In this document: positions 39,623 to 61,833 of the stretch, piece after piece
How the letters are laid out: each line of letters starts with the position of its first letter
Numbering within the stretch: position 1 is the stretch's first letter
From: Sandaracinaceae bacterium
Lineage (GTDB): Bacteria > Myxococcota_A > Polyangia > Polyangiales > Sandaracinaceae
DNA: 62,074 bases
Direction: 5' to 3'
Assembly (NCBI GenBank): GCA_040218145.1
Contig: JAVJQK010000097.1
Coordinates: 1-62,074, forward strand
Notes under the pieces: model-generated
What the model was told of the DNA's origin: nothing
The model's database searches: none
What the model saw: only the letters and a program-made list of their open reading frames with translations
Translations under genes and position numbers: made by a program

Positions 39623-39637
39623 CGAGAGAAAGCATTC

Positions 39638-41367
<1,730 letters not shown>

Positions 41368-41371
<4 letters not shown>

Positions 41372-41952
41372 GCGACGGACGACGTTTCGCGAAGGGCCTC
41401 GAGGTCCGAGGGGAGCGGGACGACGCGGGTCGCCTGACCCTCTTCGCGCCCCGGCCCGGGCTGTGGCGCGACGCGCCGCGCGAGGGGGCGCTGGTTCGCC
41501 CTGGCGACGCGGTCGGTGAGCTCGAGGTGCTCGGGGTCGTGCACGCGCTCCGGGCCCCCGCCGACGCGTTCGGGGTCGTCTCCGGGCTCCCGGGCGGCCG
41601 CCGCCTCGGACGGCGCCCGGTCGACGCCCGCACCGCGCTGATGACCCTCGACCCCGAGGGCGTCAGCGGCGAGGAGGCGGCCAAGGTCGCGGCCGAGGCC
41701 GCCGCGGACGCGAGCGGGCCCGTGTTCCGCACCCCGCTCGGCGGCCGCTTCTACGCGCGCCCCTCCCCCGACGCCGATCCGTTCGTGACGCCCGGCCTCG
41801 CGCTGAAGGGCGGCGAGACGATCGCGCTCATCGAGGTCATGAAGACGTTCAACCGCGTGCAGTACGCGGGTGAGCCCGCCACCGTGAAGGCCGTCCGCGC
41901 GAAGGACGGAGACGACGTCGAGGCCGGCGACGTCTTGTTGGAGCTCGAATGA
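41368..41952 (+). CDS. Biotin carboxyl carrier protein of the acyl-CoA carboxylase
   Basis: 194 residues (ATGA overlap). The C-terminal lipoyl/biotinyl domain contains [19 protein letters not shown] with the biotin Lys159; the usual A-M-K-M box reads V-M-K-T here, a known variant in some carboxylase carriers. It ends [12 protein letters not shown]. The N-terminal half includes a second barrel-like segment ([30 protein letters not shown]), perhaps a degenerate biotinyl domain. It completes the three-subunit carboxylase and overlaps the transporter gene by ATGA. Confidence 0.88.
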
Positions 41953-43475
41953 GCGAAGAGGACGGAGACGACGAGGGCACGCTCCTCGACCGGTTCCTCC
42001 GGGTGTTCAGTGACGTGCGGCGAGGCGAAGGCGCCACCGCGCTCATCCTGCTGTTCACGATCTTCGTCCTGCTCGTCTGCTACTACGTCCTGAAGACCGT
42101 GCGCGAGCCGCTGGTGCTCGCCAGCGCGGAGCAGGATCTCCAGCTCCTGCGCGGCACGGGCCTGCCCGACTGGCTCGTCGACACGATCGTCCAGGGAGAG
42201 GGCGCGCAGCTGAAGGCGGTCGCGGCCGGCTTCCAGGCCCTGCTCCTGGCCGGCTTCGTGCCCGCCTACTCGTGGCTCGCCTCGAAGGTCACGCGCATCC
42301 GCCTGATCGTGGGCGTGACCCTCTTCTGGATCGCGTGCATCCAGCTGTTCTTCTTCCTGCGCCTCGCCGGCGTGCCGATGCTCGGCTTCTTCTTCTACAT
42401 CTGGGTCGGCATCTTCAGCGTCTCGATCATCGCGCAGTTCTGGTCGTTCGCGAACGACATCTACAGCGACGAGCAGGGCAAGCGGCTCTTCCCGATCATC
42501 GGGGTCGGCGCCACCGCGGGCGCCCCCGTCGGCTCATGGGGCGCGGGCGCGCTCTACGACTACATCGCCCCCGACGACGTGGAGCGCGCGGACCTCGACG
42601 GGCTGCAGACCTGGCTCGCGGACCTCGGGCTCGACCCGAGCTTCATCCTGCTCCAGGTCCCCGCGATCACGCTGCTCGTGTTCCTGGGCATGATGATCTG
42701 GGCCGCGCAGCGGAAGCGCCTGGCAGAGGGCGTGAGCGACGCGCCGCAGGAAGAGGACGAGGACAAGGGCAGCGCCAAGGACGGCTTCGCCCTCATCCTG
42801 AAGAGCCCCTACGTCCGGCTCATCGCGGCGGTGATCCTCACCCTGAACCTCGTCAACACGATGGGCGAGTTCTTGCTGAGCGACATGGTCGACCAGGCGG
42901 CGGAGCAGGCGGTCGCGGCGGGCACGGCCGCGAACGAGGGGAAGTGGATCGGGAGCTTCTACTCGAGCTTCTTCCTCTACGTGAACATCGCCGCGCTCGT
43001 GCTGCAGGCCTTCGTGGTCTCACGGCTGGTGAAGTACATCGGGCTCAAGGCGGTCCTCTTCGCGCTGCCGGTGGTGGCGCTCGGGAGCTACTCGCTCTTC
43101 GCCGCGGGCTTCGGGCTCGTGGTGCTCCGCTGGGCGAAGACGGCCGAGAACTCGACCGACTACTCCATCATGAACACGGGCAAGGCGATGGTCTGGCTGC
43201 CGACCACGCGCGCGGCCAAGTACCAGGGTAAGCAGGCCGTGGACACGTTCATCGTGCGCATCGGCGACCTCGCCTCGGCCGTGATGTTCCTGATCGGCAC
43301 CGCCGCGCTCGGCATGGGCCTCCAGGGCCTGGCCGCGGTGAACCTAGGCTTCGTGATCCTCTGGCTCGGGCTGACCTACCTGCTCGTGCGCAAGCACCAG
43401 CAGGTCGAGCGCGATCCCAGCGCCGACCCTGCGGCCAGCGCCGAGGCGGTCGAGCTCGAGAACGAAGCCGCCTGA
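41949..43475 (+). CDS. ADP/ATP translocase (Npt1/NTT, TLC family)-like transporter
   Basis: 508 residues from the ATG overlapping the biotin-carrier stop. It has 11-12 membrane segments. The region FWSFANDIYSDEQGKRLFPIIGVGATAGAPVGS matches the characteristic F-x-N-D-x-Y-x-x-x-x-G-K-R-L-F-P segment of the nucleotide transporter family. The pattern EFLLSDMVDQAAEQ and KYIGLKAVLFALPVVALGSYS is also family-like. Chlamydial, rickettsial and plastid NTT proteins exchange ATP for ADP. Free-living bacterial relatives are poorly characterised and may carry other substrates. It is coupled to the carboxylase genes. Confidence 0.8.
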   Translation: MSEEDGDDEGTLLDRFLRVFSDVRRGEGATALILLFTIFVLLVCYYVLKTVREPLVLASAEQDLQLLRGTGLPDWLVDTIVQGEGAQLKAVAAGFQALLLAGFVPAYSWLASKVTRIRLIVGVTLFWIACIQLFFFLRLAGVPMLGFFFYIWVGIFSVSIIAQFWSFANDIYSDEQGKRLFPIIGVGATAGAPVGSWGAGALYDYIAPDDVERADLDGLQTWLADLGLDPSFILLQVPAITLLVFLGMMIWAAQRKRLAEGVSDAPQEEDEDKGSAKDGFALILKSPYVRLIAAVILTLNLVNTMGEFLLSDMVDQAAEQAVAAGTAANEGKWIGSFYSSFFLYVNIAALVLQAFVVSRLVKYIGLKAVLFALPVVALGSYSLFAAGFGLVVLRWAKTAENSTDYSIMNTGKAMVWLPTTRAAKYQGKQAVDTFIVRIGDLASAVMFLIGTAALGMGLQGLAAVNLGFVILWLGLTYLLVRKHQQVERDPSADPAASAEAVELENEAA

Positions 43476-46667: not shown

Positions 46668-48083
46668 TCAGTAGGCGTTGCGGTGCACCTTGGGGCTGAA
46701 GACGGTGAGCAGGATGATCTTCAGGTCGAACCACAGGCCCCAGCGACGGATGTACTCGAGGTCGTGCTCGACCCGCTTCTCCATCTTCTCGAGCGTGTCG
46801 GTCTCGCCGCGCCAGCCGTTCACCTGCGCCCAGCCGGTCAGCCCGGGCTTGACCTTGTGGCGCAGCATGTAGCCGTGGATGCGCTTGCGGTACGCCTCGT
46901 TGTGGGCGACGGCGTGGGGACGCGGCCCCACCAGGCTCATCGAGCCCGTGACGACGTGGAAGAGCTGCGGCAGCTCGTCCAGCGAGAGCCGGCGGAGGAT
47001 CGCGCCGACGGGCGTGATGCGGCTGTCGTTCTTCTCGGCCTGCTTCACCTTGGCCCCGTCCTCCGCGACCGTCATCGAGCGGAACTTCAGGACGTGGATG
47101 ATCTCGCCGTCGAGCCCGTAGCGACGCTGCTGGAAGAACACGGGCCCCTTGCTCGTGAGCTTGATCAGCAGCGCGATGAGGGCCATCGGGAGAGCCGCGA
47201 TGGTGAGGAAGACCGTCCCCAGCACGATGTCCTCGAAGCGCTTGACCCAGCCGTCGATGCCGTAGAACGGCGTCTCGAACACGCTCACCACCGGGATGTC
47301 GTCGAGCGCGCTCCAGCGGCCGTGCAGCAGATCGAAGACGAAGAAGTCCGGCACCACGTAGACGCTGGCCGTGGTGTCGGCGAGGTCGCGCAGGAGCTTC
47401 TGCACGCGCGGCTCGGCCCGCATGGGGAGCGCGATGTAGAGGATGTCGATCTCCCCCTCGCGCGCCTTGCGCACCGCGTCGTCGAAGGTGCCCACCAGGT
47501 CGGGCAGATCCGCCTCCGGGGTGTGGAGGCGCTCGGGCGTGCGGTCGTCGAAGAAGCCGACCATCTCCATACCGAGCCACGGCGTCTCCGCGAGGTGGGC
47601 CGCCACGCGCTCGCCCATCTCGGTCATGCCGATCACCCCCGCGCGGCGCATGTTGCGGCCGCGCTTGCGCGCCTCCTGCAGGGCGAGCCGGAGCAGGCCC
47701 CGGCCGACGCTGATCAGGGTCGGCGCCCCGATGAACCAGCCAAGGGTGGCGACGCGGCTGAAGGTCGACGACTCCTTGGTGAAGAAGGCGGCGAGCAGCA
47801 GCGCGGTCAGCACGCCGCCCCACACGGCCCACACCCGGACCAGCTCCTTGTGGAGCGGCACGCCACGCCACGCGCGGTAGAGGCCCCCCGCCTCCGCGAG
47901 GAAGAGGAAGACGAGCAGAGCGCCGCCGGTGGCGACCGTGTGGTGGTTGTCCCACTCGCCGGCCGAGTCGTAGACCCAGAACGCGAGCGCGTGGGCGAGG
48001 ACGATCCAGGCGGCGTCGAGGAGACGCTGTACGAGCCCGGTCTTGTTGTGGAGGGGGCGAATGAATCCGCGCTGGCGAGGCAT
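46668..48083 (-). CDS. Undecaprenyl-phosphate sugar-phosphate transferase (WcaJ-type)
   Basis: 471 residues from the ATG at 48083; a longer frame upstream to 48356 is Arg-rich and not membrane-like. Five membrane segments are followed by a CoA-binding-like domain ([17 protein letters not shown]), and the bacterial sugar transferase domain at the C-terminus has [27 protein letters not shown] and [15 protein letters not shown]. Such enzymes start repeat-unit synthesis by loading a hexose-1-phosphate on undecaprenyl phosphate. It is divergent from the OPX gene, so the two sides of 48084-48372 probably carry promoters for the same surface polysaccharide system. Confidence 0.92.
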
Positions 48084-48372
48084 GAGAATGATTCCGTCGA
48101 GTGGGGACGTCGTCCGTCCCGGCTGTGAGTCGACGGGACCCACTTCAACCGCCATGCCTGCCCGTATGCCTGCCACTGTGCGTGCCTCGTACGCCTCTGA
48201 GGTGGGGTACTCGGCCACGGGTGAGGCCGAGCGGCCGCCACGCGACCGCGCCCTCCCGCGCCGCTGTGTTCTACGTGTCGGCGTGTCGTGTCTTCCCGTC
48301 TCGTCCGGGGCGCATACGTCCGCTCGGGGCCCGCGCCTTGCTTGGGCCGTGACCACGGAGTAACGACGAATC
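48084..48372. other. Divergent intergenic region of the polysaccharide locus
   Basis: 289 bases lie between the WcaJ-type gene (minus) and the OPX gene (plus). It should hold promoters for both. I see a GGAG about 12 bases before the OPX GTG start, but no convincing -35/-10 pair. No gene is supported here. Confidence 0.5.
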
Positions 48373-49401
48373 GTGAACGCACATCTGCCTCACACCGCCG
48401 TGCTGATTTTCGCCACGGTCTCTTTTTCCCTCTTGCCGGGCTGCATCGGCAGCCTGCCGACCCCGCCGACGGTGCCGGACGCGAACGCTGGCTTCCGCGC
48501 CATGGAGTCGACGCCCGCGCCCGGCGTGGACCAGGACGAGCCGCGCCCGATGGCGCTCTATCCGGGCGACGTGGTCGCGCTGCGCATGCAGGCGGCCGAC
48601 GTCGAGACCATCGAAGGACTGAGCGTCGACGAGCGTGGCATGCTGCACGTCCCTCTGGCGGGTGACGTCCAGGTCGCGGGGCTCCCGCTCGTGGACGCCG
48701 AGGAGCGCATCGAGCAGGCCATGCGGCGCTTCATCAGCACCGTGCGCGTCACGATCGTGATGAGTGACCCAGCGGGGCACGTCGCGTCGGTCATCGGCGC
48801 GGTGGGGGAGCAGGGCCGCGTCGTGATCGCGCCCGGCATGCGCGTGGCGGATCTCCTCGCCGCGGCAGGTGGGCCCGCCACGTCGAGCGAGGGCGGGTCG
48901 ACCACCCTGCTCGCCGATCTCTCGAGCGCCCGGCTGGTCCGCGGCGGCGAGGCGGTGCCGATCGACGTCGGTACCGCGGTGACCGGAGATCCTCGGCACA
49001 ACGTCTTCGTGCGACCGGGCGACTACCTCTACGTGCCGCCGCAGCTGCGCGGGCTGATCAGCGTGCTCGGCGAGGTGAACGGGGCGCGCGTGCTCCCGTT
49101 CCAGCCGGGCATCCGCCTCTCGCAGGCCCTGGCGATGGCGGGCGGAATCACTCGTGATGCCAACGGAGGCGACATCCGGATCGTCCGCGGCGGCCCCGAC
49201 GACGCGATGATCTACCGCGCCGGCATCGATCACGTGGTGAGCGGCCACTACGAGGACCCCGTGCTCGCGCCCGGCGACATCGTCTACGTGGGCTCGAGCG
49301 GCCTGGCAGATTTCCGCGACTTCACGACCGCGATCTCCCCGATCATCAGCATCGGCGCCACCACCGCGATCGGCGTCGCCGCCTTCAGCTCGGGCCCGTA
49401 G
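48373..49401 (+). CDS. OPX/Wza-like polysaccharide export lipoprotein
   Basis: 342 residues from a GTG at 48373 (GGAG 12 bases upstream). The signal peptide has its lipobox Cys at 24 (SLLPGC). The Poly_export region runs from LYPGDVVALRMQ through VDERGMLHVPLAGDVQVAGLPLVDAEERIEQAM. Two SLBB-like domains follow (ASVIGAVGEQGRVVIAPGMRVADLLAAAGG and ISVLGEVNGARVLPFQPGIRLSQALAMAGG). The C-terminal segment TTAIGVAAFSSGP is hydrophobic. It would form, or be part of, the outer-membrane exporter for the glycan built by this locus. It is the first gene of the plus-strand unit. Confidence 0.9.
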   Translation: MNAHLPHTAVLIFATVSFSLLPGCIGSLPTPPTVPDANAGFRAMESTPAPGVDQDEPRPMALYPGDVVALRMQAADVETIEGLSVDERGMLHVPLAGDVQVAGLPLVDAEERIEQAMRRFISTVRVTIVMSDPAGHVASVIGAVGEQGRVVIAPGMRVADLLAAAGGPATSSEGGSTTLLADLSSARLVRGGEAVPIDVGTAVTGDPRHNVFVRPGDYLYVPPQLRGLISVLGEVNGARVLPFQPGIRLSQALAMAGGITRDANGGDIRIVRGGPDDAMIYRAGIDHVVSGHYEDPVLAPGDIVYVGSSGLADFRDFTTAISPIISIGATTAIGVAAFSSGP

Positions 49402-49504: not shown

Positions 49505-52500
49505 ATGACCGCCGAGAACCCTTTCCGCTGCTACGTGATGGGCAGCGAATCTCTCCTCGTGCAGTGCACCGAGATCCTCCTCCGCGAAGGCCACAAGGTG
49601 CTGGGGGTGATCAGCGAGGCGGACGACATCGTCCGCTGGGCCGAGGATCAGAAGATCCCCGTGGTGCCGCCCGGGAAGGACCTCGCGTCGCGCCTCTCGG
49701 ACGACCCCTTCGAGTGGTTCTTCAGTCTCGCGAACCTCTCCATCATCCCGGACGACGTGCTCGCGAAGCCCACCGAGGGGGCGATCAACTTCCATGACGG
49801 CCCGCTGCCTCGCTACGCCGGCCTCAACGCGACGACCTGGGCCCTGCTCCACGGCGAGCGGACCCACGGCGTCAGCTTCCACCTCATCGAGGGCGGAGTG
49901 GACGAGGGCGACCTGCTCGCCCAGCGCGTCTTCGAGCTGAACGACCGGGAGACCGCGCTCACGCTCAACACGCGCTGCTACGAGCTCGGCATCGAGACCT
50001 TCGGACAGCTGGTCGAGCAGCTCGGCGCGGGCACGCACGAGCGCACCGAGCAGGACCTGGGCAAGCGCAGCTACTTCGGCAAGTTCGACCGCCCCGACGG
50101 CGGCTCCACCATCGACTGGGACCAGCCGGCGCACGTCATCGACGCGCTCGTCCGCGCGCTGGACTACGGCGGCTACCCGAACCCGGTCGGCGCGGCCAAG
50201 GTCGTGCTCGAGCGCGGCGTGCTGCTCCTCCCGGAGGTCGAGCGGGCCGCGGACAGCACCTCCGAGAAGCCCGGCACCGTGGTCGGCGTCGACGACGACG
50301 GCCTCGAGGTCGCCACGCAGACGGGCACCCTCCTCTTCCCGCGCGTGCTCGACGGCGAAGGTCGTCCGCTCACGGCGGAGGCCGCGTTCGCCCTCGGCGT
50401 GCAGCCCGGAGCGAGCCTGGTCGCGAGCCCCTCGACCCGGAAGCGGCTCGGGGAGCTGGACCGCGCGATGGCCAAAAACGAGGCCTTCTGGACGCGCCGG
50501 CTCTCCACCCTCGAGGCGGCGAAGATCCCGCAGGCCGATCACGCGACCGTCGCGAAGCCGAAGCAGGAGCGCCGCGCGATCGAGGCGACGGCCGCGCCGA
50601 CGCGGCTCTTCGCGGGGCTGGGCGCGTGGCTCGCGCGCGTCAGCGGCAAGCACGCCTTCGACGTGGCGCACCGGCCGCCGTCGCTCTCCGAGACCATCGC
50701 GGGGGCCGAGCGGCTCTACGCAGATCGCGTCCCGATGCGGCTCTCGGTCGATCTGGAGGCGCCGTTCTCCGCCCTCCTCGAGGCCACCGAGAAGGAGCTG
50801 GCGCGGGTCGACGCGAAGGGCACCTACCCCCTCGAGCTCTTCCACCGCCAGCCGAGCGCGCAGCGCCCGAGCTACGACGTGGTGGCGGAGCAGGTCACCT
50901 CGCTCGACGACTGGAGCCTCCCGAGCGGCGCGATCGCCGGGCTGATCACGGACGGGAGCCGCGCGGCCCTCGTCTTCGACGCGGAGCGGCTCGCGCCGGC
51001 CCAGGCGGACGCGATGCGCCAGCAGCTCGAGGCGCTCCTGCGCGGCGCCGACGAGACGCTCGTGGGTGACCTCCCGCTGCTCTCGGAGGGTGAGCGGCGG
51101 CGCCTCCTCGAGGAGTGGAACGACACCGCGAGGGACTTCCCGCGCGACCAGGGCGTGCACCAGCTCTTCGAGGCGCAGGTCGACCGCAGCCCCGACACGC
51201 AGGCGCTCGTCTACCGCGGCAGCGCGCTCACCTACGCGGAGCTGGACGCCAAGGCCAACCAGCTCGCGCACCGCCTCATCGGCCTCGGCGTGAAGGCCGA
51301 CACCCCCGTCGGCCTCTGCACCGACCGCAGCCTCGATCTCCTCATCGGCGCCCTCGGCATCCTCAAGGCGGGCGGCGCCTACGTGCCGCTCGACCCCAGC
51401 TACCCGAAGGATCGCCTGGCCTTCATGGTCGAGGACAGCGCCGCGCCCGTGATCGTCACGCTCTCCCGCACCCGAGACGTGCTCCCGGAGGGCGAGGCCA
51501 CGCGGGTCGTGCTCGACGAAGAGGACCTCGGCGGCCAGCCGACCACGCGACCCTCGGTCGACGGCTGGAGCAGCGACAACCTCGCCTACCTCATCTACAC
51601 GAGCGGCTCGACCGGCAAGCCCAAGGGCGTGATGGTCGAGCACCGGAACGTCGCGAACTTCTTCACCGGCATGGACGCGGAGATCCCGCACGAGCCGGCC
51701 GGCCGCTGGCTCGCGGTGACCAGCCTCAGCTTCGACATCTCGGTGCTCGAGCTGTTCTGGACGCTCGCCCGCGGCTTCACGGTGGTGCTCTCGAGCGACG
51801 AGGACCGCGCGCTCGTCAGCGGCGGCGGCGCCGGCGTCAGCCAGTACAGCCACCGCAAGATCGACTTCAGCCTCTTCTACTTCGCATCCGACGCGGGCGA
51901 GAACGCGACCGACAAGTACAAGCTGCTCCTCGACGGCGCCCGCTTCGCCGACGAGAACGGCTTCGCCGCGGTCTGGACCCCGGAGCGTCACTTCCACGCG
52001 TTCGGCGGCCTCTACCCGAACCCGTCGGTGGCCAGCGCCGCGCTCTCGACCATCACCAAGAACGTCAAGCTGCGCGCCGGCAGCTGCGTCAACCCGCTCC
52101 ACCACCCGGTCCGCGTGGCCGAGGAGTGGGCCCTCGTCGACAACCTCTCGAACGGGCGCGTGGGCATCAGCTTCGCCGCGGGCTGGCAGCCCAACGACTT
52201 CGTCATCCGACCGGAGGCGTTCGAGAACAACAAGCAGCGCATGCTCGACGAGATCGACATCATCCGTCGCCTCTGGCGCGGCGAGGGCGTGACCTTCGAG
52301 GGGCCGACCGGCCCGGTCGAGGTCAAGACCCTGCCCCGCCCGGTGCAGAAGGAGCTGCCGTTCTTCATCACCGCGGCTGGCAACCCGCAGACCTTCGAGC
52401 TGGCCGGGACCCTCGGGGGCGGCATCCTGACCCACCTGCTGGGCCAGAGCGTCGACGAGGCCAAGGAGAAGATCGGGATCTACCGCAAGGCCTGGAAGGA

Positions 52501-54118
52501 CGCGGGGCACCCCGGAGAGGGGCACGTCGTCCTGATGCTCCACACCTTCGTCGGCGACGACGAGGAGAGCGTGAAGGAGATCGTGCGCGAGCCGATGAAG
52601 GCCTACCTCAAGAGCTCGATGATGCTGATCCAGCAGCACGCCTGGTCGTTCCCGGCGTTCAAGAAGCACGCGCGCGAGGACAAGTCCTTCAAGGACAACT
52701 TCCTCAACCTCTCCGCGGAGGACACCGACGCGTTGCTCGACCACTCGTTCGAGCGGTACTACGAGACGAGCGCGATGTTCGGCACCCCCGAGAGCTGTCG
52801 CGAGCAGGTCGAGCGCTGCCGCGGGATCGGCGTCGACGAGATCGCGTGTCTGATCGACTTCGGGATCGACAGCGAGACCGTGCTCACGCACTTCCCGCAG
52901 CTCAACACGCTGCGGGCCGAGGCGACGGCGCCGCGCGAGGACCTCTCCGAGGACGACTACTCCATCGCCGCCCAGCTCGAGCGTCACGCGATCACGCACA
53001 TGCAGTGCACGCCGTCGATGGCGCAGATGCTCGTGATGAACGACGAGGCGCGGACCGCGCTCGGCGGGCTGAAGCACCTGATGGTCGGGGGCGAGGCGTT
53101 CCCGGGCGCGCTCGCGAAGGCGCTCCGAGAGGCGACCTCGGCCAGCATCACGAACATGTATGGCCCCACGGAGACCACGATCTGGTCTTCCACGGAGGCG
53201 GCCGAGCCGGGAGAGGGGACCGTCGCGATCGGCACCCCCATCGCGAACACCCAGCTCTACGTGCTCGACGAGCGGCGCCAGCCGGTGCCGGTCGGCGTCC
53301 CGGGGGAGCTCTACATCGGCGGCGACGGCGTCACGCGCGGCTACTGGAAGCGCGAGGATCTGACGGCCGAGCGCTTCGTGGCCGATCCATTCCGAGGTGG
53401 CGAGGCGCGCATGTACCGCACAGGCGACGAGGTGCGCTGGCGCGAGGACGGCCACCTCGAGTTCCTCGGCCGCATGGACCACCAGGTGAAGCTCCGCGGC
53501 TACCGCATCGAGCTGGGAGAGATCGAGGCGCGCCTCCGGCTGCACGACAGCGTGCGCGAGGCGGTCGTGATCGCGCGGGAAGACACGCCGGGAGACAAGC
53601 GTCTGGTCGGCTACCTGGTGACCGACGGAACCTTCGACGCGGCCGCTCTCAAGGCCCACCTCGGCGAGACGCTGCCCGACTTCATGGTGCCGGCGCACCT
53701 CGTGAAGATGGATCGCTTCCCGCTCACCCCGAACAAGAAGATCGATCGCAAGGCGCTGCCCCGCCCGGAGGCCGCCGTCACGCGCGCCGAGGAGCACGTC
53801 GCGCCGGCGGGCGAGGTCGAGGAGAAGATCGCGGGCGTGTGGAAGCGCATCCTCGGCCTCAGCGAGGTCGGCACCCGGGACAACTTCTTCGAGCTCGGCG
53901 GCCACTCGCTCCTCGCCGTGCAGGCGCACCGCGAGATCGCCGAGGCGACGGGCGCGAAGCTCACCGTGACCGACATCTTCCGCTTCCCCACGATCCAGGC
54001 CCTCGCGGATCACCTCGAGGGCGACGGCGGCGGCAACGAGGCGCTCCAGAAGAGCGCCGATCGCGCGGCGGCGCGCCGACAGGCGCTGGGCCGGCGCAGG
54101 GTCCTACGGCGGCGGTGA
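49505..54118 (+). CDS. One-module NRPS-like enzyme: formyltransferase - C remnant - A (with inserted luciferase-like monooxygenase) - T
   Basis: 1,537 residues. 1-310: methionyl-tRNA-formyltransferase-like domain with Asn95/His97 in INFHDGPLPRYAG and Asp133 in GGVDEGDLL. About 380-540: the C-terminal part of a condensation domain; the catalytic HHxxxDG motif is absent. About 545-1415: adenylation domain with LIYTSGSTGKPKG (698-708), NMYGPTETT (1217-), YRTGD (1304-), GYRIELGEIE and NKKIDRKALP (1410-). It is split after FTVVLSS by a luciferase-like monooxygenase of about 350 residues (785-1133; RHFHAFGG, SCVNPLHHPVRVAEEWALVD). 1425-1515: carrier protein with phosphopantetheine Ser1468 in FFELGGHSLLAV. 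There is no thioesterase or reductase. It probably activates one amino acid, which may be formylated and oxidised while bound. It overlaps the PPTase gene (GTGA). Position in a glycan locus suggests aminoacyl transfer to a sugar or lipid (inference). Confidence 0.9.
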   Translation: MTAENPFRCYVMGSESLLVQCTEILLREGHKVLGVISEADDIVRWAEDQKIPVVPPGKDLASRLSDDPFEWFFSLANLSIIPDDVLAKPTEGAINFHDGPLPRYAGLNATTWALLHGERTHGVSFHLIEGGVDEGDLLAQRVFELNDRETALTLNTRCYELGIETFGQLVEQLGAGTHERTEQDLGKRSYFGKFDRPDGGSTIDWDQPAHVIDALVRALDYGGYPNPVGAAKVVLERGVLLLPEVERAADSTSEKPGTVVGVDDDGLEVATQTGTLLFPRVLDGEGRPLTAEAAFALGVQPGASLVASPSTRKRLGELDRAMAKNEAFWTRRLSTLEAAKIPQADHATVAKPKQERRAIEATAAPTRLFAGLGAWLARVSGKHAFDVAHRPPSLSETIAGAERLYADRVPMRLSVDLEAPFSALLEATEKELARVDAKGTYPLELFHRQPSAQRPSYDVVAEQVTSLDDWSLPSGAIAGLITDGSRAALVFDAERLAPAQADAMRQQLEALLRGADETLVGDLPLLSEGERRRLLEEWNDTARDFPRDQGVHQLFEAQVDRSPDTQALVYRGSALTYAELDAKANQLAHRLIGLGVKADTPVGLCTDRSLDLLIGALGILKAGGAYVPLDPSYPKDRLAFMVEDSAAPVIVTLSRTRDVLPEGEATRVVLDEEDLGGQPTTRPSVDGWSSDNLAYLIYTSGSTGKPKGVMVEHRNVANFFTGMDAEIPHEPAGRWLAVTSLSFDISVLELFWTLARGFTVVLSSDEDRALVSGGGAGVSQYSHRKIDFSLFYFASDAGENATDKYKLLLDGARFADENGFAAVWTPERHFHAFGGLYPNPSVASAALSTITKNVKLRAGSCVNPLHHPVRVAEEWALVDNLSNGRVGISFAAGWQPNDFVIRPEAFENNKQRMLDEIDIIRRLWRGEGVTFEGPTGPVEVKTLPRPVQKELPFFITAAGNPQTFELAGTLGGGILTHLLGQSVDEAKEKIGIYRKAWKDAGHPGEGHVVLMLHTFVGDDEESVKEIVREPMKAYLKSSMMLIQQHAWSFPAFKKHAREDKSFKDNFLNLSAEDTDALLDHSFERYYETSAMFGTPESCREQVERCRGIGVDEIACLIDFGIDSETVLTHFPQLNTLRAEATAPREDLSEDDYSIAAQLERHAITHMQCTPSMAQMLVMNDEARTALGGLKHLMVGGEAFPGALAKALREATSASITNMYGPTETTIWSSTEAAEPGEGTVAIGTPIANTQLYVLDERRQPVPVGVPGELYIGGDGVTRGYWKREDLTAERFVADPFRGGEARMYRTGDEVRWREDGHLEFLGRMDHQVKLRGYRIELGEIEARLRLHDSVREAVVIAREDTPGDKRLVGYLVTDGTFDAAALKAHLGETLPDFMVPAHLVKMDRFPLTPNKKIDRKALPRPEAAVTRAEEHVAPAGEVEEKIAGVWKRILGLSEVGTRDNFFELGGHSLLAVQAHREIAEATGAKLTVTDIFRFPTIQALADHLEGDGGGNEALQKSADRAAARRQALGRRRVLRRR
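51857..52903 (+). other. Luciferase-like monooxygenase domain inserted in the adenylation domain
   Basis: Residues about 785-1133 of the NRPS-like protein. The TIM-barrel monooxygenase starts RKIDFSLFYFASDAG and ends around HFPQLNTLR. It matches the natural-product luciferase-like monooxygenase type that occurs inside NRPS/PKS proteins. It uses reduced flavin and oxygen. Adenylation motifs A3 lie before it and A5 onward after it, so the adenylation fold resumes at about 1150. Confidence 0.85.
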
Positions 54119-54783
54119 TCGAGGACGCGCTCAGCGACCTGCTCGGCCCCCGGGTGCGCTTCGCGGTGCGGATCCCCGGAGAGGTGCCTCTGACGGCGCT
54201 CATGGCGCCGGAGGAGCACCTCGCCGCGCGCGCCGTCGACAAGCGCCGCTACGAGCTCGCCGCGGGTCGGGACGCCGCGCGGGCCGCGCTCCGTCTACTC
54301 GGCGCCCCCACGATCGCGATCGGGCGCGGCGGACGCGGGGAGCCTCTGTGGCCCGAGGGCGTCGTGGGCACGATCACGCACACCGACACGCTCTGCGTGG
54401 CCGCGGTCGCGGACGCCGGGGCGATGCGCGGGCTCGGGCTCGACGCCGAGCCAGACGAGCCGCTCGACCGCGAGCTGTGGTCCCTGATCACGACGCGCGA
54501 GGAGCACGTCGCCCTGCAGGATGACCCGCGCCCCGGTGAGCGCGCGCGGCGCACCTTTTGCGCGAAGGAGGCAGCCTACAAGTGCCAGTACCCGCTCAGC
54601 GGGACCTTCCTCGAATTCGAGGACGTGGTGATCCGGCACGACGCCGACGATCGCTTCGACGCCGTCTTCCAGCGCAGCGCGCCCCCGTTCGCGGCGGGCG
54701 CGACGATCCACGGTCGCTTCGTGCGGGCCGGGGCGCACGTGATCGCGGGTGCCTGGATCGACAACGAAGGAGAGACGCGCTGA
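54115..54783 (+). CDS. 4'-phosphopantetheinyl transferase (EntD/Sfp-like)
   Basis: 222 residues from a GTG overlapping the NRPS stop (GTGA). The PPTase core is visible: GRGGRGEPLWPEGVVGTITHT, the metal-binding Asp110 and Glu112 in LGLDAEPDEPLDR, and FCAKEAAYKCQYP with Lys151, Glu152 and Lys156. It uses CoA to load phosphopantetheine on the carrier domain (Ser1468 of the preceding protein). Translational coupling with a single-module NRPS strongly suggests a dedicated partner. EntD-type length (about 200-230) fits. Confidence 0.92.
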   Translation: MIEDALSDLLGPRVRFAVRIPGEVPLTALMAPEEHLAARAVDKRRYELAAGRDAARAALRLLGAPTIAIGRGGRGEPLWPEGVVGTITHTDTLCVAAVADAGAMRGLGLDAEPDEPLDRELWSLITTREEHVALQDDPRPGERARRTFCAKEAAYKCQYPLSGTFLEFEDVVIRHDADDRFDAVFQRSAPPFAAGATIHGRFVRAGAHVIAGAWIDNEGETR

Positions 54784-54871
54784 TGTTGCCGCGGAGCGTG
54801 GTTGTGGCGACTTCGGCCGGTGCTAGCTGGATGGTTCGAGTACCATGTCAGCGTTTTCGAGGAGCACCGCG

Positions 54872-56893
54872 ATGAGCGGCCGAGAGATGGATCTCGACGA
54901 CGAAGAGACCAAGCCGTCTCGTCCGGGCTACCCGGTCGATTGGCGCCGCGTTCTGAGGGCCATCTCCAGAGGGAAGTGGTGGCTCCTGATCGCGGCCGCG
55001 GTGGGCGGTCTGATCGGCGTCGTCATCGGGAAGTTCGTGATGCAGCACACGTACGAAGCGAGCACCTCGCTTCGGTACGAAGGCTTGCCCGGCGACGACT
55101 TCCAGGAGCCGCAGCGGGCCTTGCCGGCTCTGGTCGCGGTGACCCACACCGACCCGATCATGATCGAGCTGCGCGCCCGCACGAACAAGGACGGGGCCAC
55201 CCTCGACCTCATGCGGCGCATGGTCCAGGTGACGAGCGACGCGCAGAGCGGCCTGGTCACGTTCACGACCACCGGCGGCACGGCCGAGGAATCGGCGGAC
55301 ATGGCGAACACGCTCGTGGACGTCTTCCTCGAGCACCACCGCGAGCGTCGCAGCGCCGAGCTCCGCGCGGAGATGGCGAGCCTCGACGAGCGCATCGCCG
55401 CGTCCGAGAACGAGGCCGCGACCGCGCGCCGCGCCTACGACTCCTTCCGCGAGGCCAACGGCATCACGGATCTGACGGCGGAGCAGGAGCAGGCCATCGA
55501 CCAGGCGGCCGACCTGCGCTCGCAGGCGGACCTCGCCCAGGCGGAGATCATGGCGCTCGAGGCCCGCGTCCGGCAGCTGACCGAGGCGCGCGAGCGCACG
55601 CCCCGCATGGAGACGGTGAGCACGAGCAGCGGCGGCTCGAGCCGCGTCCGGGAGCTGGAGGCGCGCCTCGCCGAAGCGCGCGGTCAGGGCATGAGCGAGC
55701 AGCACCCGACGGTGCAGGCGCTCCAGCGTCAGATCTCGGCGCTGCGAAGCTCGGGCGGCGGCGGGGGCGGCTCGCGCACGGCGCGCAGCAGCCTCTACGA
55801 GCAGATCGAGACCAGCCTCTCGGAGGCGGAGACCGAGCTGTCGGCGGCGCGCGAGCGGCACAACAGCCTCGAGCAGCTCGCGGGCACCGCGCAGGAGCGC
55901 ACCAACCGGTTCAGCGCGATGGAGGGCCAGGCGGCCAACCTGCTCGCGCAGGTCAACGTCAAGCAGGCCCTCGTCAACGAGCTCAACGAGCAGCGCGCGG
56001 GCATCGAAGATCAGCTGCGCGACATCGAGACCGGCTTCCGCACCGTCGCGGAGGCGCGTCCCCCCGAGAGCGCGGTCCCCTCGAAGAAGAAGTACGCGGT
56101 CGCGGGCGGCATCCCGCTCCTCTTCGTGACGGTGATGCTCGGCATGCTGCTCTACCGCGAGCTCCGCGGGCTGCGCGTCATCACGCCGACCGAGGTGGCC
56201 TGGTGGGGCAACGGGCCGGTGATCGGCATGACGACCTGGCCCCGCGATCCACGCGCGCTGATCGACCTGATCGCGGACATGGACGACTTCGCGCCCGACG
56301 CGCGCGGCACGATGCTGGTGGTCGGGGCCACCGACTCCGAGCAGGAGCTCGCGAGCGAGATCGCCGGCCAGCTCAACCACGACTGGAGCTCGACCACGCT
56401 CATCGACGTGCCCGTGGTGGGCGCGCTCCCGCCGGGCGATGACCCCGCGCCGATCACGACGCCGTCCTCCTCCCGCGGCCACCACGACGTCTACGACGAC
56501 GACGAGGTGCTCAGCGGCGAGATCCACGACGGCCCGACCGAGATCGTGCTCGCCGGCAGCCCCGCCGACACCCTCGCGATGGGGGCCCCGAGCTACGCGC
56601 CGCCGCCGCGCCCGATCAGCGACGACCCGGCCGACCGGCTGATCTGCACCGCGTGGAACGGCCCGCCCGAGGGGCAGGCCCTGCGCCGCGCGGCCCGGCT
56701 CGCCGAGCGGGTGCTGGTGGTGGTGACGAGCGGGAACATCAAGGCGACCGATCTCGCCCAGACGCAGACCCGGCTCGGGCGCGATGGAGCCATCGGCTAC
56801 GTGCTCGTCGGCGCGAGCGAGAGCACGGCCAAGCTCCCCGACCGCGAGGGCCCGGTGGAGCACTTCTGGGTGCCCTCCCCGTCTCCTCGCTGA
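54872..56893 (+). CDS. Wzz/Wzc-like polysaccharide co-polymerase with degenerate kinase domain
   Basis: 673 residues from the ATG at 54872, with GAGGAG seven bases upstream; the ATG at 54845 lacks a site. Two membrane segments at about 36-57 and 408-430 flank a long coiled-coil periplasmic domain (helices about 165-390), the PCP-2/Wzc layout. The C-terminal cytoplasmic part (about 445-673) has the tyrosine-kinase-like fold pattern, but the P-loop position reads VVGATDSEQELASE instead of a G-x-x-x-x-G-K-(S/T) motif, and there is no Tyr-rich tail. It is probably an inactive pseudokinase that controls chain length or scaffolding. It starts 88 bases after the PPTase. Confidence 0.85.
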   Translation: MSGREMDLDDEETKPSRPGYPVDWRRVLRAISRGKWWLLIAAAVGGLIGVVIGKFVMQHTYEASTSLRYEGLPGDDFQEPQRALPALVAVTHTDPIMIELRARTNKDGATLDLMRRMVQVTSDAQSGLVTFTTTGGTAEESADMANTLVDVFLEHHRERRSAELRAEMASLDERIAASENEAATARRAYDSFREANGITDLTAEQEQAIDQAADLRSQADLAQAEIMALEARVRQLTEARERTPRMETVSTSSGGSSRVRELEARLAEARGQGMSEQHPTVQALQRQISALRSSGGGGGGSRTARSSLYEQIETSLSEAETELSAARERHNSLEQLAGTAQERTNRFSAMEGQAANLLAQVNVKQALVNELNEQRAGIEDQLRDIETGFRTVAEARPPESAVPSKKKYAVAGGIPLLFVTVMLGMLLYRELRGLRVITPTEVAWWGNGPVIGMTTWPRDPRALIDLIADMDDFAPDARGTMLVVGATDSEQELASEIAGQLNHDWSSTTLIDVPVVGALPPGDDPAPITTPSSSRGHHDVYDDDEVLSGEIHDGPTEIVLAGSPADTLAMGAPSYAPPPRPISDDPADRLICTAWNGPPEGQALRRAARLAERVLVVVTSGNIKATDLAQTQTRLGRDGAIGYVLVGASESTAKLPDREGPVEHFWVPSPSPR

Positions 56894-56901
56894 GGTATTC
56901 G

Positions 56902-57411
56902 ATGCGTCGAGAAGCGTCTCGGAAGAAGATCGTCGCCATCAGCTCGGGAGGCGGTCACTGGATCGAGCTCCTCCGCCTCCGCCCCGCCTTCGACGGCCAC
57001 TTCGTGGTCTGGGTCACCGTGAGCGAGGCCTACCGCGCGCACGTCGACGGACCGCTGCGGGTGATCGACGACGTGACCCGCTGGGACCGGCTCGGCCTGC
57101 TGAAGTGCGCCTGGCAGGTGACGCGCATCCTCCTGAGCGAGCGGCCCGACGTGGTCGTGAGCACGGGCGCCCTCCCCGGCTTCTTCGGCGTGGTGCTCGC
57201 GAAGCGGCTCGGCATCCGGACCGTCTGGGTCGACAGCCTCGCCAACGTGGAGGAGCTGTCGATGAGCGGGCAGAAGGTCGGCGCGCACGCCGATCTGTGG
57301 CTGACGCAGTGGCCGGAGCTCGCGCGCGAGGGCGGCCCGCTCTACGCGGGGAGCGTGCTCGGGGAGCTCGACCGCCCCTCGGAGTCCCCCGTCATGGCGG
57401 AGGCCGAGTGA
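56902..57411 (+). CDS. Alg14/PssD-like glycosyltransferase subunit
   Basis: 169 residues from the ATG at 56902, with GAGG six bases upstream. It begins KKIVAISSGGGHWIELLRLRPAF, continues with VVSTGALPGFFGVVLAKRLGIRTVWVDSLANVEELSMSG, and matches the Alg14-type acceptor-binding half of a two-part GT28-like enzyme. The catalytic donor-binding half follows in a GTGA overlap. The donor sugar is unknown (GlcNAc in yeast; glucuronic acid in rhizobial PssDE). Confidence 0.88.
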   Translation: MRREASRKKIVAISSGGGHWIELLRLRPAFDGHFVVWVTVSEAYRAHVDGPLRVIDDVTRWDRLGLLKCAWQVTRILLSERPDVVVSTGALPGFFGVVLAKRLGIRTVWVDSLANVEELSMSGQKVGAHADLWLTQWPELAREGGPLYAGSVLGELDRPSESPVMAEAE

Positions 57412-57887
57412 AGCTCTTCGTCACCGTGGGCGCGCAGATGCCCTTCGATCGCCTCATCGAGGCCGTCGACGCCTGGGCAGCGACGCAGGACGACGTGGAG
57501 ATCCTGGCGCAGATCGGGGACTCCGAGGTGTCGCCTCGCCACCTGACGCACACGCGCTTCCTCGAGCCGGTGGAGTTCGACCGCGCCTACGACGAGGCCG
57601 ACGCCGTCATCGGCCACGCCGGCATCGGCACCCTCTTCGCGGCCCTCGAGCGCGGCAAGCCGATCGTCGTGCTCCCGCGCGAGGCGGCGCGCCGCGAGAC
57701 GCGGAACGACCACCAGATCGCGACCGCGAAGGCCTTCGCCCGGTTCGCCGGCGTGCACGTCGCCTGGAACGAAGCCGAGCTTCCCGCCAAGCTCGGCACG
57801 CTCTCCCGCTCTCGAACCGGGCCGCAGCTGGGCGCCTACGCGTCCGGCCCGCTCGTCGAGCGGATCTCCGCTTTCATCGACTCGTGA
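57408..57887 (+). CDS. Alg13/PssE-like glycosyltransferase subunit
   Basis: 159 residues from a GTG overlapping the Alg14-like stop. It has LFVTVGAQMPFDRLIEAVDAW, HAGIGTLFAALERGKPIVVLPR and a C-terminal RNDHQIATAKAFARF, the Alg13-type donor-binding domain with the G-H-A-G-x-G-T motif. With the preceding gene it forms one transferase acting on a lipid-linked acceptor at the inner membrane. It overlaps the epimerase gene by GTGA. Confidence 0.88.
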   Translation: MKLFVTVGAQMPFDRLIEAVDAWAATQDDVEILAQIGDSEVSPRHLTHTRFLEPVEFDRAYDEADAVIGHAGIGTLFAALERGKPIVVLPREAARRETRNDHQIATAKAFARFAGVHVAWNEAELPAKLGTLSRSRTGPQLGAYASGPLVERISAFIDS

Positions 57888-58837
57888 GGCAGACCTTGAA
57901 GATCCTCGTCACCGGAGGCGCCGGCTTCATCGGCAGCCACGTCGCGGACGCGCTCCTCGAAGAGGGGCACAGCGTGGTCGTGCTCGACGACCTCAGCAGC
58001 GGACGCGCCGAGAACGTGCCCGAGAAGGCGCTCTTCCTCGAGGGCGACCTGCGGGACGCGGCGCTCGTGGACCGCGCGTTCGCCGAGCACGACTTCGACG
58101 TGGTCTGCCACCAGGGCGCGCAGACGAGCGTCAGCGTCTCCACCCGCGAGCCCGTGCGCGACGCGGAGATCAACGTGATCGGCGGGCTCAACGTGCTCGA
58201 GGCTGCGCGCGCGCACGGCATCGCCCGCTTCGTCTTCGCCTCGACGGGCGGCGCCATCTACGGCGACATCCCCGAGGGCCAGCGCGCGGGCGAGGGATGG
58301 CCACCGCAGCCCATCAGCCCCTACGCGTGCTCGAAGCTCGCGTTCGAGCGCTACCTCGCGGCCTACCACCACGAGCACGGCACCCCCTCGACCATCCTCC
58401 GCTACGCCAACGTCTACGGCCCGCGCCAGGACCCCCACGGCGAGGCCGGCGTGGTCGCCATTTTCTGCCAGCGCCTGGCGAGCGGAGAGAAGATCCGCAT
58501 CAACGCCATGCGCGAGGTCGGCGACGCCGGCTGTGTGCGCGACTACGTCTACGTGGCCGACGTCGTGAAGGCGAACCTGCTCGCCATCCAGGGCAAGCTC
58601 GAGGGCAAGGTCATCAACGTCGGCAGCGGCGAGGGGACCTCCACCCTCCAGCTCGCGGAGCGCATCGAGGCGGCCCTCGGCGTCAAGACCGACAAGGAGT
58701 GGGGCACGCGGCGCGCGGGCGATCTCGAGCGCTCGGTGCTCGAGCCCAACGACGAGCTCCAGCGGCACACGGGCCCGGCGACGCCGATCGCGGACGGCAT
58801 CCGAGAGACGGCGCGCTGGTTCGCGGGACGGGCGTGA
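57884..58837 (+). CDS. NAD-dependent nucleotide-sugar epimerase (UDP-glucose 4-epimerase-like SDR)
   Basis: 317 residues from a GTG overlapping the Alg13-like stop. The Rossmann motif is VTGGAGFIGSHVADALLEEGH (G-x-x-G-x-x-G), then LDDLSSG, STGGAIYGD with the catalytic Ser/Thr region, YACSKLAFERYL (Y-x-x-x-K) and RYANVYGPRQDP. It belongs to the extended SDR epimerases/dehydratases. It would make a sugar donor for the glycan. The exact reaction (4-epimerase, uronate epimerase or dehydratase) cannot be set here. Confidence 0.9.
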   Translation: MRQTLKILVTGGAGFIGSHVADALLEEGHSVVVLDDLSSGRAENVPEKALFLEGDLRDAALVDRAFAEHDFDVVCHQGAQTSVSVSTREPVRDAEINVIGGLNVLEAARAHGIARFVFASTGGAIYGDIPEGQRAGEGWPPQPISPYACSKLAFERYLAAYHHEHGTPSTILRYANVYGPRQDPHGEAGVVAIFCQRLASGEKIRINAMREVGDAGCVRDYVYVADVVKANLLAIQGKLEGKVINVGSGEGTSTLQLAERIEAALGVKTDKEWGTRRAGDLERSVLEPNDELQRHTGPATPIADGIRETARWFAGRA

Positions 58838-58841
58838 TCAC

Positions 58842-60758
58842 ATGTGCGGCATCGCCGGCGCAGTCGGTCTGATCGAGAGCGGGCTCCCCGACGCGGTCGC
58901 GCGCATGACCGACGCGCAGGCGCACCGCGGGCCCGACCAGGACGGGCAGTGGCGGAGCGGGGAGCGGGGCCGCGGCGCGGTGCTCGGCCACCGCCGCCTC
59001 TCCATCCTCGACCTGAGCGAGGCGGGCCGCCAGCCGATGATCGACCCCGAGACGGGCGTCGTCATCGCCTACAACGGCGAGGCCTACAACTTCGGCGAGC
59101 TGGCCGCGGAGCTGCGCGCGCTCGGCGTCGAGCTGAAGTCCACGAGCGACACCGAGGTCGTGCTGAAGGCGTACGCTCGCTGGGGAGAGAAGGCGATTGC
59201 GCGCCTCCGCGGCATGTTCGCCATCGCGCTCTGGGACCCGCGGGACCAGACCCTGCTCCTCGCGCGCGACCGGCTGGGCATCAAGCCGCTCTACTACGCC
59301 GAGGTCGACGGCGCGCTCCTCTTCGCGTCCGAGATCCGCGCCATGCTCGCGTCCGAGAAGATCGCGCGGCGCCTCGACCCGAGCGCGCTCGAGCGCTTCC
59401 TATGGCACGGCTTCGTCCCCGGGCCCGGCACCCTGATCGAGGGCGTGAAGCTGCTGCCCGCGGGCACGTGCATGCGCATCCCGCTCGAGGGCCGGCCGTC
59501 CCGCCCCGCGCCCTACTGGACGCTGCCGAAGCACCGGCCGGTGGGCGAGGACGAGGCGGTGGCGGACCTGTCGGAGCGCCTGAACGAGGCGGTGAAGCTG
59601 CGCCTGATCGCGGACGTGCCGCTCGGCATCTTCCTGAGCGGCGGGGTCGACTCGAGCGCGGTCGCGGCGCTCGCCCAGCGCGCGGCGGACGCGCCGGTCA
59701 CCACCTTCAACATCTCGTTCGAGGAGGCGCGCTACGACGAGTCGAAGTACGCGCGCCAGGTGGCCGAGAAGCTCGGCACCGAGCACCGCGAGATCACCCT
59801 GACCGAGCAGGACTTCACCGGTCACCTCGACGAGGCGCTCGAGTCCATCGACCAGCCCACCTTCGACGCGATCAACACCTGGTTCGTGAGCCGCGCGGTC
59901 AAGCAGGCGGGGCTGACGGTCGCGCTGGCCGGCACCGGGGGCGACGAGCTCTTCGGCGGCTACGCGAGCTTCACCGACATCCCGAAGGCGCGCCGGGTGG
60001 CCAGCGCGCTCGGCCCCGTCCCGCAGCGCGCCAAGGCGGCGCTGGCCGACGCCGTCGTCGCCGCGAAGACCGGCCGCGCGAGCGAGGTCTCGCCGCAGAC
60101 CCGCTGGGGGAAGCTGGCCGACGTGCTCGGCACCCGAGGCGACCGGCTCGCGCTCTACCAGACCAGCTACGCGCTCTTCACGCGCGAGATGAACCGTCAG
60201 CTCGCGCTCCGCCCGAGCGGCACCCTGGACTGGGGGCTCGACGTGGCCCGCGCGGCGGAGCTGCGGGAGCTGATCGACGGTGAGCCCGATCTGCACGCGG
60301 TGAGCCTGCTCGAGCTGTCGTCGTTCCTGGGGGAGCGCCTGCTCCGGGACACCGACGCGGCCTCGATGGACGTCTCGCTCGAGGTGCGCGTGCCGCTGCT
60401 CGATCACCTCGTGGTCGAGAGCCTGGCCCGCGTGCCGATCGCGCGCCGCTTCGAGCCGCTCCGGCGCAAGCAGCTGCTGCGCGAGATGATGGCGGACGAC
60501 CTCGACCCGGCGATGTTCGACCGCCCGAAGGCCGGCTTCGAGCTCCCGCTCGCCGTCTGGTGCCGTCGCGGGCTCGGTCCGAAGCTCGCCAACACCTTCC
60601 GCGATCTCGTGCTCGCGCACCGGATCGGCCTCAACGGCGAGGCGGTGGGACGCGTCTGGCGCGCCTTCGACAAGGGCGGAGCCGGGGTCTACTGGTCCCG
60701 CGTTTGGGCCCTATTCGTCCTTCTGAGATGGTGCGAGGCGCACGGCGTCGAGGCGTGA
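58842..60758 (+). CDS. asnB: Asparagine synthetase-type glutamine amidotransferase (AsnB)
   Basis: 638 residues. It starts MCGIAGAVGL, so Cys2 is the glutaminase nucleophile after Met removal. Glutaminase residues include HRGPDQDGQW and YNGEAYN. The ATP pyrophosphatase loop is FLSGGVDSSAVAA at about 264-276, and GTGGDELFGGY follows. It starts four bases after the epimerase. In polysaccharide clusters such enzymes often amidate uronic acids or similar groups rather than make asparagine. It could also act on the amino acid carried by the NRPS product (inference). Confidence 0.9.
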   Translation: MCGIAGAVGLIESGLPDAVARMTDAQAHRGPDQDGQWRSGERGRGAVLGHRRLSILDLSEAGRQPMIDPETGVVIAYNGEAYNFGELAAELRALGVELKSTSDTEVVLKAYARWGEKAIARLRGMFAIALWDPRDQTLLLARDRLGIKPLYYAEVDGALLFASEIRAMLASEKIARRLDPSALERFLWHGFVPGPGTLIEGVKLLPAGTCMRIPLEGRPSRPAPYWTLPKHRPVGEDEAVADLSERLNEAVKLRLIADVPLGIFLSGGVDSSAVAALAQRAADAPVTTFNISFEEARYDESKYARQVAEKLGTEHREITLTEQDFTGHLDEALESIDQPTFDAINTWFVSRAVKQAGLTVALAGTGGDELFGGYASFTDIPKARRVASALGPVPQRAKAALADAVVAAKTGRASEVSPQTRWGKLADVLGTRGDRLALYQTSYALFTREMNRQLALRPSGTLDWGLDVARAAELRELIDGEPDLHAVSLLELSSFLGERLLRDTDAASMDVSLEVRVPLLDHLVVESLARVPIARRFEPLRRKQLLREMMADDLDPAMFDRPKAGFELPLAVWCRRGLGPKLANTFRDLVLAHRIGLNGEAVGRVWRAFDKGGAGVYWSRVWALFVLLRWCEAHGVEA

Positions 60759-60828: not shown

Positions 60829-61833
60829 ATGGCCGAGCCCTTCCGACCCGTCGAGCGCCCCGAGGGACGCGCCTATTGCCTGATCTCGCCGTGCCGAGAC
60901 GAGGCGAAGTACCTGCGCACCACGCTCGAGACGACCTGCACCCAGACCGTGCCGCCCGCGCTGTGGGTCGTGGTCGATGACGGGTCCACCGACGCGACGC
61001 CCGAGATCCTCGCCGAGTACGCCGCGAAGTACGACTTCCTGAAGGTCGTCACGCGCAAGGATCGTGGCGGCCGCGCCGTGGGCCCGGGCGTGATCGAGGC
61101 GTTCTACGAGGGGCTCAGCCACATCGACCTGGACGACTTCGACTACGTCTGCAAGTTCGACTGCGACCTCGAGATGCCGCCCCGCTACTTCGAGCGGGTG
61201 ATGGAGCGCATGGAGGCCGACCCCTACCTCGGCAACCTCTCCGGCAAGCTCTTCGAGCGCAAGGACACGGGCGAGCTCTGGGAGGAGCGCACGGGCGACG
61301 AGAACGCGGTCGGGCCGGCGAAGTTCTACCGGACGGCGTGCTTCCAGGAGATCGGCGGCTTCGTGCGCGAGGTGTCCTGGGACGGCATCGACGGCCACGT
61401 CTGCCGGATGAACGGCTGGATCGCGCAGAGCATCGACGACCCGGAGATGCGCATCGTGCATCTCCGGCCGATGGGCTCGAGCCAGCAGAACATCAAGGTC
61501 GGCCGCGTGCGCTGGGGCCGCGGCAAGTACTTCATGGGCAGCGCGTTCTATTACGTGCTCGCCTCGGCCGCGTACCGCTCGATGGAGCCGCCCTGGATCT
61601 GGGGCGGGCTCGGCATCACGTGGGGCTACTTCAAGGCGATGATCGAGGGGCACCCCCGCTACGACAACCCCGAGTACCGCCGCTACCTGCGCCGCTTCGA
61701 GCGCAACCAGCTCTTGATGGGCAAGAAGCGCGCGCTCGAGCGCGAGAACGCGCGGCTCCGCGAGCACTTCGAGCCCAAGGCCGAGATGAAGCGCAGCGCC
61801 GCGCCAGCCCGAGCGGCCGCAAGCTCTTTGTAA
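60829..61833 (+). CDS. Family 2 glycosyltransferase
   Basis: 334 residues from the ATG at 60829, with GAGGAGAG eight to nine bases upstream. The GT-A fold shows YCLISPCRDEAKYLRTTL, VVVDDGSTDATPE (Asp50/Asp51) and the D-x-D region FDYVCKFDCDLEMPP. The acceptor side has AKFYRTACFQEIGGF and WDGIDGHVCRMNGW. No membrane helices are obvious, so it acts at the inner face of the membrane on a lipid-linked acceptor. It is separated from asnB by the 14-bp repeats. The C-terminus is rich in Arg, Glu and Ala. Confidence 0.9.
   Translation: MAEPFRPVERPEGRAYCLISPCRDEAKYLRTTLETTCTQTVPPALWVVVDDGSTDATPEILAEYAAKYDFLKVVTRKDRGGRAVGPGVIEAFYEGLSHIDLDDFDYVCKFDCDLEMPPRYFERVMERMEADPYLGNLSGKLFERKDTGELWEERTGDENAVGPAKFYRTACFQEIGGFVREVSWDGIDGHVCRMNGWIAQSIDDPEMRIVHLRPMGSSQQNIKVGRVRWGRGKYFMGSAFYYVLASAAYRSMEPPWIWGGLGITWGYFKAMIEGHPRYDNPEYRRYLRRFERNQLLMGKKRALERENARLREHFEPKAEMKRSAAPARAAASSL

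Follow-up and report, generated by a model that had tools for sequence, protein, structure and literature searches.

The 1537-residue protein encoded at 49505-54118 combines a formyltransferase (FT) domain, the C-terminal part of a condensation (C) domain, an adenylation (A) domain that is interrupted by a luciferase-like monooxygenase and a single carrier (T) domain, in this order. We propose that this module is the loading partner in an NRPS-PKS line of two proteins, in which it would hand an N-formyl-(alpha-hydroxy)glycyl starter to the PKS for conversion into a short product that is probably bound to a sugar or polysaccharide, and we assign this reading a probability of about 60%. The combination of an FT domain, a glycine-type A domain and a monooxygenase between the A-domain motifs A4 and A5 represents a variant of two module types that are already known. 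The window analyzed here, 62,074 nucleotides in length, is the entire contig C97 of a genome of 11.06 Mb in 148 contigs.

The preliminary description of this DNA found the combination, in one stand-alone module, unfamiliar. A cluster of PKS, glycosyltransferase (GT), NRPS and phosphopantetheinyl transferase (PPTase) genes is already on record in roseobacters, where it is conserved in 28 of 57 genomes and was still an orphan with no product identified as of 2016 (PMC4337385, PMC5014874). What the present analysis adds is the domain logic of this cluster, its occurrence outside roseobacters and its location next to capsule/EPS export genes. Reading the two proteins as FT-A(Gly)-monooxygenase-T and KS-AT-KR-DH-T-TE leads to a small and definite product hypothesis for a cluster that was orphan in 2015 and 2016. 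Beyond the preliminary description, we also find that the PPTase gene overlaps the module, that polysaccharide genes flank both, that a PKS with a thioesterase is encoded elsewhere in the genome and that the A-domain code is of the glycine type.

Domain organization of the module

The open frame begins with ATG, and its codon composition is typical of coding sequence (GC by position 0.70/0.45/0.96). Searches with Pfam and NCBIfam models returned Formyl_trans_N (residues 79-164), Formyl_trans_C (202-294), AMP-binding in two stretches, AMP-binding_C, a single PP-binding match and TIGR04020 (seco_metab_LLM, titled 'MupA/Atu3671 family FMN-dependent luciferase-like monooxygenase') at residues 788-1137, the last with 496 bits against a cut-off of 244. 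Together with hhalign, these matches confirm the preliminary reading of one frame with an FT domain, a broken C domain, an A domain, a monooxygenase and one carrier domain (Table 1). The nearest solved relative across the full length of the protein is LgrA, the initiation module of linear gramicidin synthetase (F-A-T), which agrees with the gramicidin-type FT start suggested earlier. RefSeq names the protein after its monooxygenase, and no paper giving its domain order was found in an incomplete coverage of the literature.

Table 1. Features of the module and of its flanking genes in the window.
Feature	Position	Strand	Basis
Undecaprenyl-phosphate sugar transferase (Bac_transf, CoA_binding_3), start codon uncertain	46668..48356	-	
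Wza-type polysaccharide export protein	48373..49401	+	Poly_export + SLBB
FT-(half C)-A(LLM)-T protein, 1537 aa	49505..54118	+	Domain searches, homologue alignment
FT domain, aa 1-306, FMT/ArnA-like, both subdomains	49505..50422	+	Pfam, alignment, fold match
C-terminal part of condensation domain, aa 310-545	50432..51139	+	hhalign, structure model
A domain, N-terminal part with A3 and A4	51137..51853	+	Pfam, motifs, structure model
Luciferase-like flavin monooxygenase (TIGR04020), between A4 and A5	51866..52915	+	NCBIfam
A domain, C-terminal part with A5-A10	52925..53764	+	Pfam, alignment
Carrier (T) domain, phosphopantetheine Ser1468	53822..54016	+	Pfam, alignment
Basic C-terminal tail of the module	54017..54115	+	K/R count in homologues
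4'-Phosphopantetheinyl transferase (PPTase), GTG start overlapping module stop	54115..54783	+	
Wzz/Wzc-like chain-length protein	54845..56893	+	Appearance and position; no Pfam match
Alg14/Alg13-type glycosyltransferase pair, first start approximate	56653..57887	+	
NAD-dependent sugar epimerase/dehydratase	57884..58837	+	
Asparagine-synthase-type amidotransferase	58842..60758	+	
Glycosyltransferase family 2 (GT2)	60829..61833	+	

The FT residues reported in the preliminary description are intact: N95, H97 and D133, which correspond to the Asn, His and Asp of the active site in methionyl-tRNA formyltransferase (E. coli FMT), are invariant across 73 aligned homologues. In a structure model of residues 1-560 (mean pLDDT 94 for the whole construct), the FT part adopts a complete FMT/ArnA-type fold, matching ArnA (2bln) with a Z of 27.9 and an rmsd of 2.6 over 290 residues. 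The region that follows, residues ~310-552, aligns with the portion of condensation domains that follows HHxxxDG (hhalign 98.8%, E 8e-17, 235 columns), and HHxxxDG itself is absent from this part of the module, as had been noticed from the sequence. The half-C region is well folded in the same model; a fold search of residues 1-560 returned no condensation-domain structures, and because matches to the FT domain fill that list, the identity of the half-C region rests on profile comparison and not on fold. Mean column identity among homologues is 41% in the stretch of FT and half C vs. 60% in the A-monooxygenase stretch and is lowest in the half-C region, which fits the structural role that this domain may have.

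Like LgrA, the module carries an FT domain with the Asn/His/Asp residues ahead of the A and T domains in one protein, and it has no functional upstream C domain, as only the part after HHxxxDG is present. Unlike LgrA, which starts with valine, it has a half C separating FT from A, and its A domain contains a monooxygenase.

An adenylation domain with a glycine-type code and an inserted monooxygenase

The A domain breaks off after A4 (SFDISVLEL) and picks up before A5 (NMYGPTE), and the monooxygenase of about 350 residues that the preliminary description placed inside the A domain is thereby located precisely between A4 and A5. Although the model of the A-domain part is less certain overall (pLDDT 84, pTM 0.57), it superposes on A domains such as that of TycA (Z 52.7, 386 residues), as well as on LgrA and DhbF, and the insert loops out. 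The substrate code given by the ten pocket positions is DILQMGMIWK; this exact code occurs in 45 of the 73 aligned sequences, positions 1, 2, 3, 6 and 9 are invariant in all 73, and nearly all homologues have the code DILQ(M/L/F)GMIWK. Among PDB entries, the pocket segment best matches DhbF (5u89; ITIMQATPT...VLVGGEA...NLYGPTETTIW), whose aligned pocket residues are alike and whose first module activates glycine. L141, a homologue that lacks the monooxygenase, carries precisely DILQLGLIWK, a glycine code. The A-domain code of the module is regarded as glycine-type, and glycine is its predicted substrate.

The solved structure nearest to the monooxygenase domain is PuwE of puwainaphycin (6ket, E 5e-112), which belongs to a different synthase, is not accompanied by an FT domain and, as far as known, has a different substrate. 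A flavin monooxygenase located between A4 and A5 is described for the myxothiazol and melithiazol synthetases, in which it hydroxylates the glycyl alpha-carbon (PMC10204066). The A-MOx modules MtaG and MelG of these systems, as described in the same paper, share with the present module a flavin monooxygenase between A4 and A5 of an A domain, which takes glycine in MtaG and MelG and is predicted to do so in the present module, but are terminal modules that act on a long chain and carry a TE, whereas the present one is a loading module with an FT domain and no TE. Two other systems were considered as precedents and rejected: althiomycin, in which an oxime is formed from glycine, has an oxidase that acts in trans and no named FT (PMC3445576), and in SolF of solanimycin the insert lies between A8 and A9 instead of A4 and A5 (PMC10204066).

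Three homologues of about 1200 residues each lack the insert, so oxidation is not required in all family members. These proteins, from Thiomargarita (L105:9986-13606), Thiotrichaceae (L126:3278-6922) and Streptomyces palmae (L141:3012-6611), are natural insert-free comparators. In the latter two loci, the genes that follow include one for a putative ATP-dependent amidotransferase-like protein (CxxC, SGGxDS motif).

The partner polyketide synthase

The preliminary description saw a stand-alone module without a release domain. This reading is not supported: a PKS is encoded on contig C83 of the same genome (41935-48426; 54% identity over query residues 10-2126), and a dedicated single-module PKS that ends in a thioesterase accompanies the module. 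The two genes are on different contigs here and 20-55 kb apart in several relatives, which counts against our proposal. Three PKSs from the loci of relatives were scanned for domains and are all KS-AT-KR-DH-T-TE. By inspection, the motifs of the C83 PKS are intact in KS (TACSTS, ECHGTGT, NIGH), AT (GHSLGE), KR (TGGLGGLG with S, Y and N), the carrier (GGHSL) and TE (GGFSGG, GDHD). Its DH domain has the His and Asp, a one-residue insertion in the motif and no usual DxxxQ, which makes dehydration by this PKS uncertain.

The PKS co-occurs with the module. It is found in all 14 relatives with an A-monooxygenase module vs. none of 43 without (57 relatives; Fisher p 1e-13, with kinship ignored). Among Myxococcota, where 20 of 237 genomes contain the module, a KS of the clade of this PKS (>=58% identity) is present in 19 of the 20 module-bearing genomes vs. 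2 of the 217 module-less genomes. Near the module in the best 80 of at least 580 loci, a type I PKS occurs in 63, a GT2 in 37 and a PPTase, mostly directly downstream, in 33. In addition, at least eight K/R are found among the last 30 residues of the module in 58 of 69 homologues, and this basic C-terminal tail is possibly a docking element.

All four genes of the roseobacter cluster have homologues in this genome, as a GT2 homologue adjoins the PKS on C83. Unlike in roseobacters, they are not adjacent: the module and the PPTase are found beside a Wza gene on C97, while the PKS and GT2 are on the other contig, and the host is probably a myxobacterium of the Polyangia type. In Leisingera ANG-Vp (L135) and Ruegeria ANG-S4 (L154), strains of the roseobacter study (PMC4337385), the homologues are ordered PKS-GT2-module-PPTase. 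One locus (L073:7319-11065, genome G041) encodes a half C-A(LLM)-T protein without an FT domain, and its PKS partner is still nearby.

Proposed pathway

The domains and the conserved FT residues support the earlier suggestion that an N-formylated or oxidized amino acid may be formed on the carrier. From these domains, their active-site residues, the glycine-type code, the co-occurrence with the PKS and the genomic context, we infer the chemical steps, their order, the product and its use as follows. The PPTase would arm the carrier of the module, and the A domain would activate glycine as Gly-AMP and load it onto the T domain (Gly-T). By the logic of LgrA, the FT domain would then formylate the amino group from formyl-tetrahydrofolate to give N-formyl-Gly-T, while the inserted flavin monooxygenase, by the logic of MtaG/MelG, would hydroxylate the alpha-carbon of the glycine, with the C-N bond presumably retained. 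The resulting N-formyl-(alpha-hydroxy)glycyl unit would be passed to the KS of the separate single-module PKS, which would add one malonyl-derived C2 unit, followed by ketoreduction and, provided that the DH domain is active, dehydration. Finally, the TE may release or transfer a short product of the 4-formamido-(4-hydroxy)but-2-enoyl type, which would probably be joined to a sugar or polysaccharide. Such a final acceptor is suggested by the glycosyltransferase and the surrounding genes.

Polysaccharide context and fate of the product

In the window, the module and its PPTase lie between genes for polysaccharide synthesis and export (Table 1), and the end of the contig at 62074 falls inside this cluster. 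Of 13 relatives with only two to three Wza/Poly_export genes per genome, ten have one of these genes no more than 4 kb from the module. In two genomes (G042 and G034), the module, the PKS and Wza/Wzc/Wzx/Wzy-like genes are in one locus, and the plasmid copies of Roseobacter and Aminobacter lie among genes annotated as sugar transferase, CpsD kinase, WecB, flippase, O-antigen ligase and export genes. The presence of the pair inside polysaccharide loci in two lineages suggests a form of surface decoration that has yet to be described.

The same assembly line may instead make a free and possibly glycosylated secondary metabolite, such as a signal, an antibiotic or a metallophore, in which case the polysaccharide genes would be mere neighbors or would share the glycosyltransferase. 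We consider this a possible, though clearly the lesser, outcome. A free product would be consistent with the C-terminal type I thioesterase of the PKS, a domain that usually serves for release, and with a link to EPS that is strong only in Polyangia and Rhodobacterales, but the proximity of Wza genes in genomes with so few of them and the whole Wzx/Wzy-type loci that hold module and PKS argue for a bound one. Polysaccharide hallmark genes are found in 22 of 36 rhodobacteral loci vs. 10 of 44 others; the link to EPS is thus not general and is weak outside Polyangia and Rhodobacterales. It is a tentative and rather doubtful extension of our proposal that the NRPS-PKS pair carries out a widespread modification of surface polysaccharides, in which an acyl group derived from N-formyl-alpha-hydroxyglycine (4-formamido-4-hydroxybutenoyl or its lactone) would be placed on capsule/EPS sugars in myxobacteria, roseobacters and other phyla.

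Two other features of the window lie upstream of this region. Genes for a biotin carboxylase, a carboxyltransferase and a biotin-carrier protein at 38270-41952 are, by sequence reading, probably an acyl-CoA carboxylase operon. They are followed at 41949-43475 by a gene for a membrane protein that by appearance resembles carriers of the ATP/ADP-translocase (Npt/Tlc) type, which is unexpected for a free-living bacterium.

Alternative chemistries

In the myxothiazol and melithiazol systems, the monooxygenase inserted at this position brings about cleavage of a carbinolamide and formation of a glyoxyl thioester (PMC10204066). By analogy, the hydroxylated N-formylglycyl-T could undergo C-N cleavage, so that glyoxylyl-T would be the starter for the PKS and formamide would be released. 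This course is unlikely, as it would be wasteful to formylate the amine and then discard it, and solanimycin B keeps its hydroxyglycine (PMC10204066).

The monooxygenase could also oxidize the nitrogen and not the carbon, which would yield an N-formyl-N-hydroxyglycyl unit, a hydroxamate and perhaps a metal ligand. N-formyl-N-hydroxy units occur in siderophores, and an FT domain and a monooxygenase share one module here. Nevertheless, the precedent for inserts between A4 and A5 is alpha-hydroxylation of glycine (PMC10204066) and no siderophore transport genes were noted within the window, so that oxidation of the nitrogen appears improbable.

It is very improbable that the FT domain is a sugar N-formyltransferase which has become joined to a carrier module and whose substrate is an amino sugar of the polysaccharide rather than glycine. 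The FT fold matches ArnA and, at lower Z, sugar formyltransferases, and the gene context is that of a polysaccharide locus; however, LgrA is the closest solved protein over the full length, and the FT-A-T fusion is kept where polysaccharide genes are not near.

Distribution of the module

A search of 84,980 genomes with the FT domain identified at least 580 relatives. The best 80 of these at least 580 loci are from myxobacteria, Rhodobacteraceae, Hydrogenophaga, Planctomycetes, Anaerolineae, Acidobacteria, Gemmatimonadota, Actinobacteria and others, and nearly all complete homologues among them have the full architecture in about 1500-1700 residues. The truncated C domain might suggest separate genes joined by assembly error or a decayed NRPS remnant, but the whole layout, truncated C included, recurs in more than 60 full-length relatives across many phyla along with the conserved catalytic residues. 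This rules out such an artefact for practical purposes, including the assembly error that the preliminary description had named as a possible refutation.

Larger and different NRPSs with an FT domain that is 35-37% identical are encoded on rhizobial plasmids of Bradyrhizobium, Rhizobium and Sinorhizobium (for example, L179:12052-24474, NZ_CP096256.1), and one Rhizobium plasmid record has four such places. The genome analyzed here also contains a second large NRPS locus, at about 164630-186296 of contig C70 (L002-L008), with an open frame of 6173 residues.
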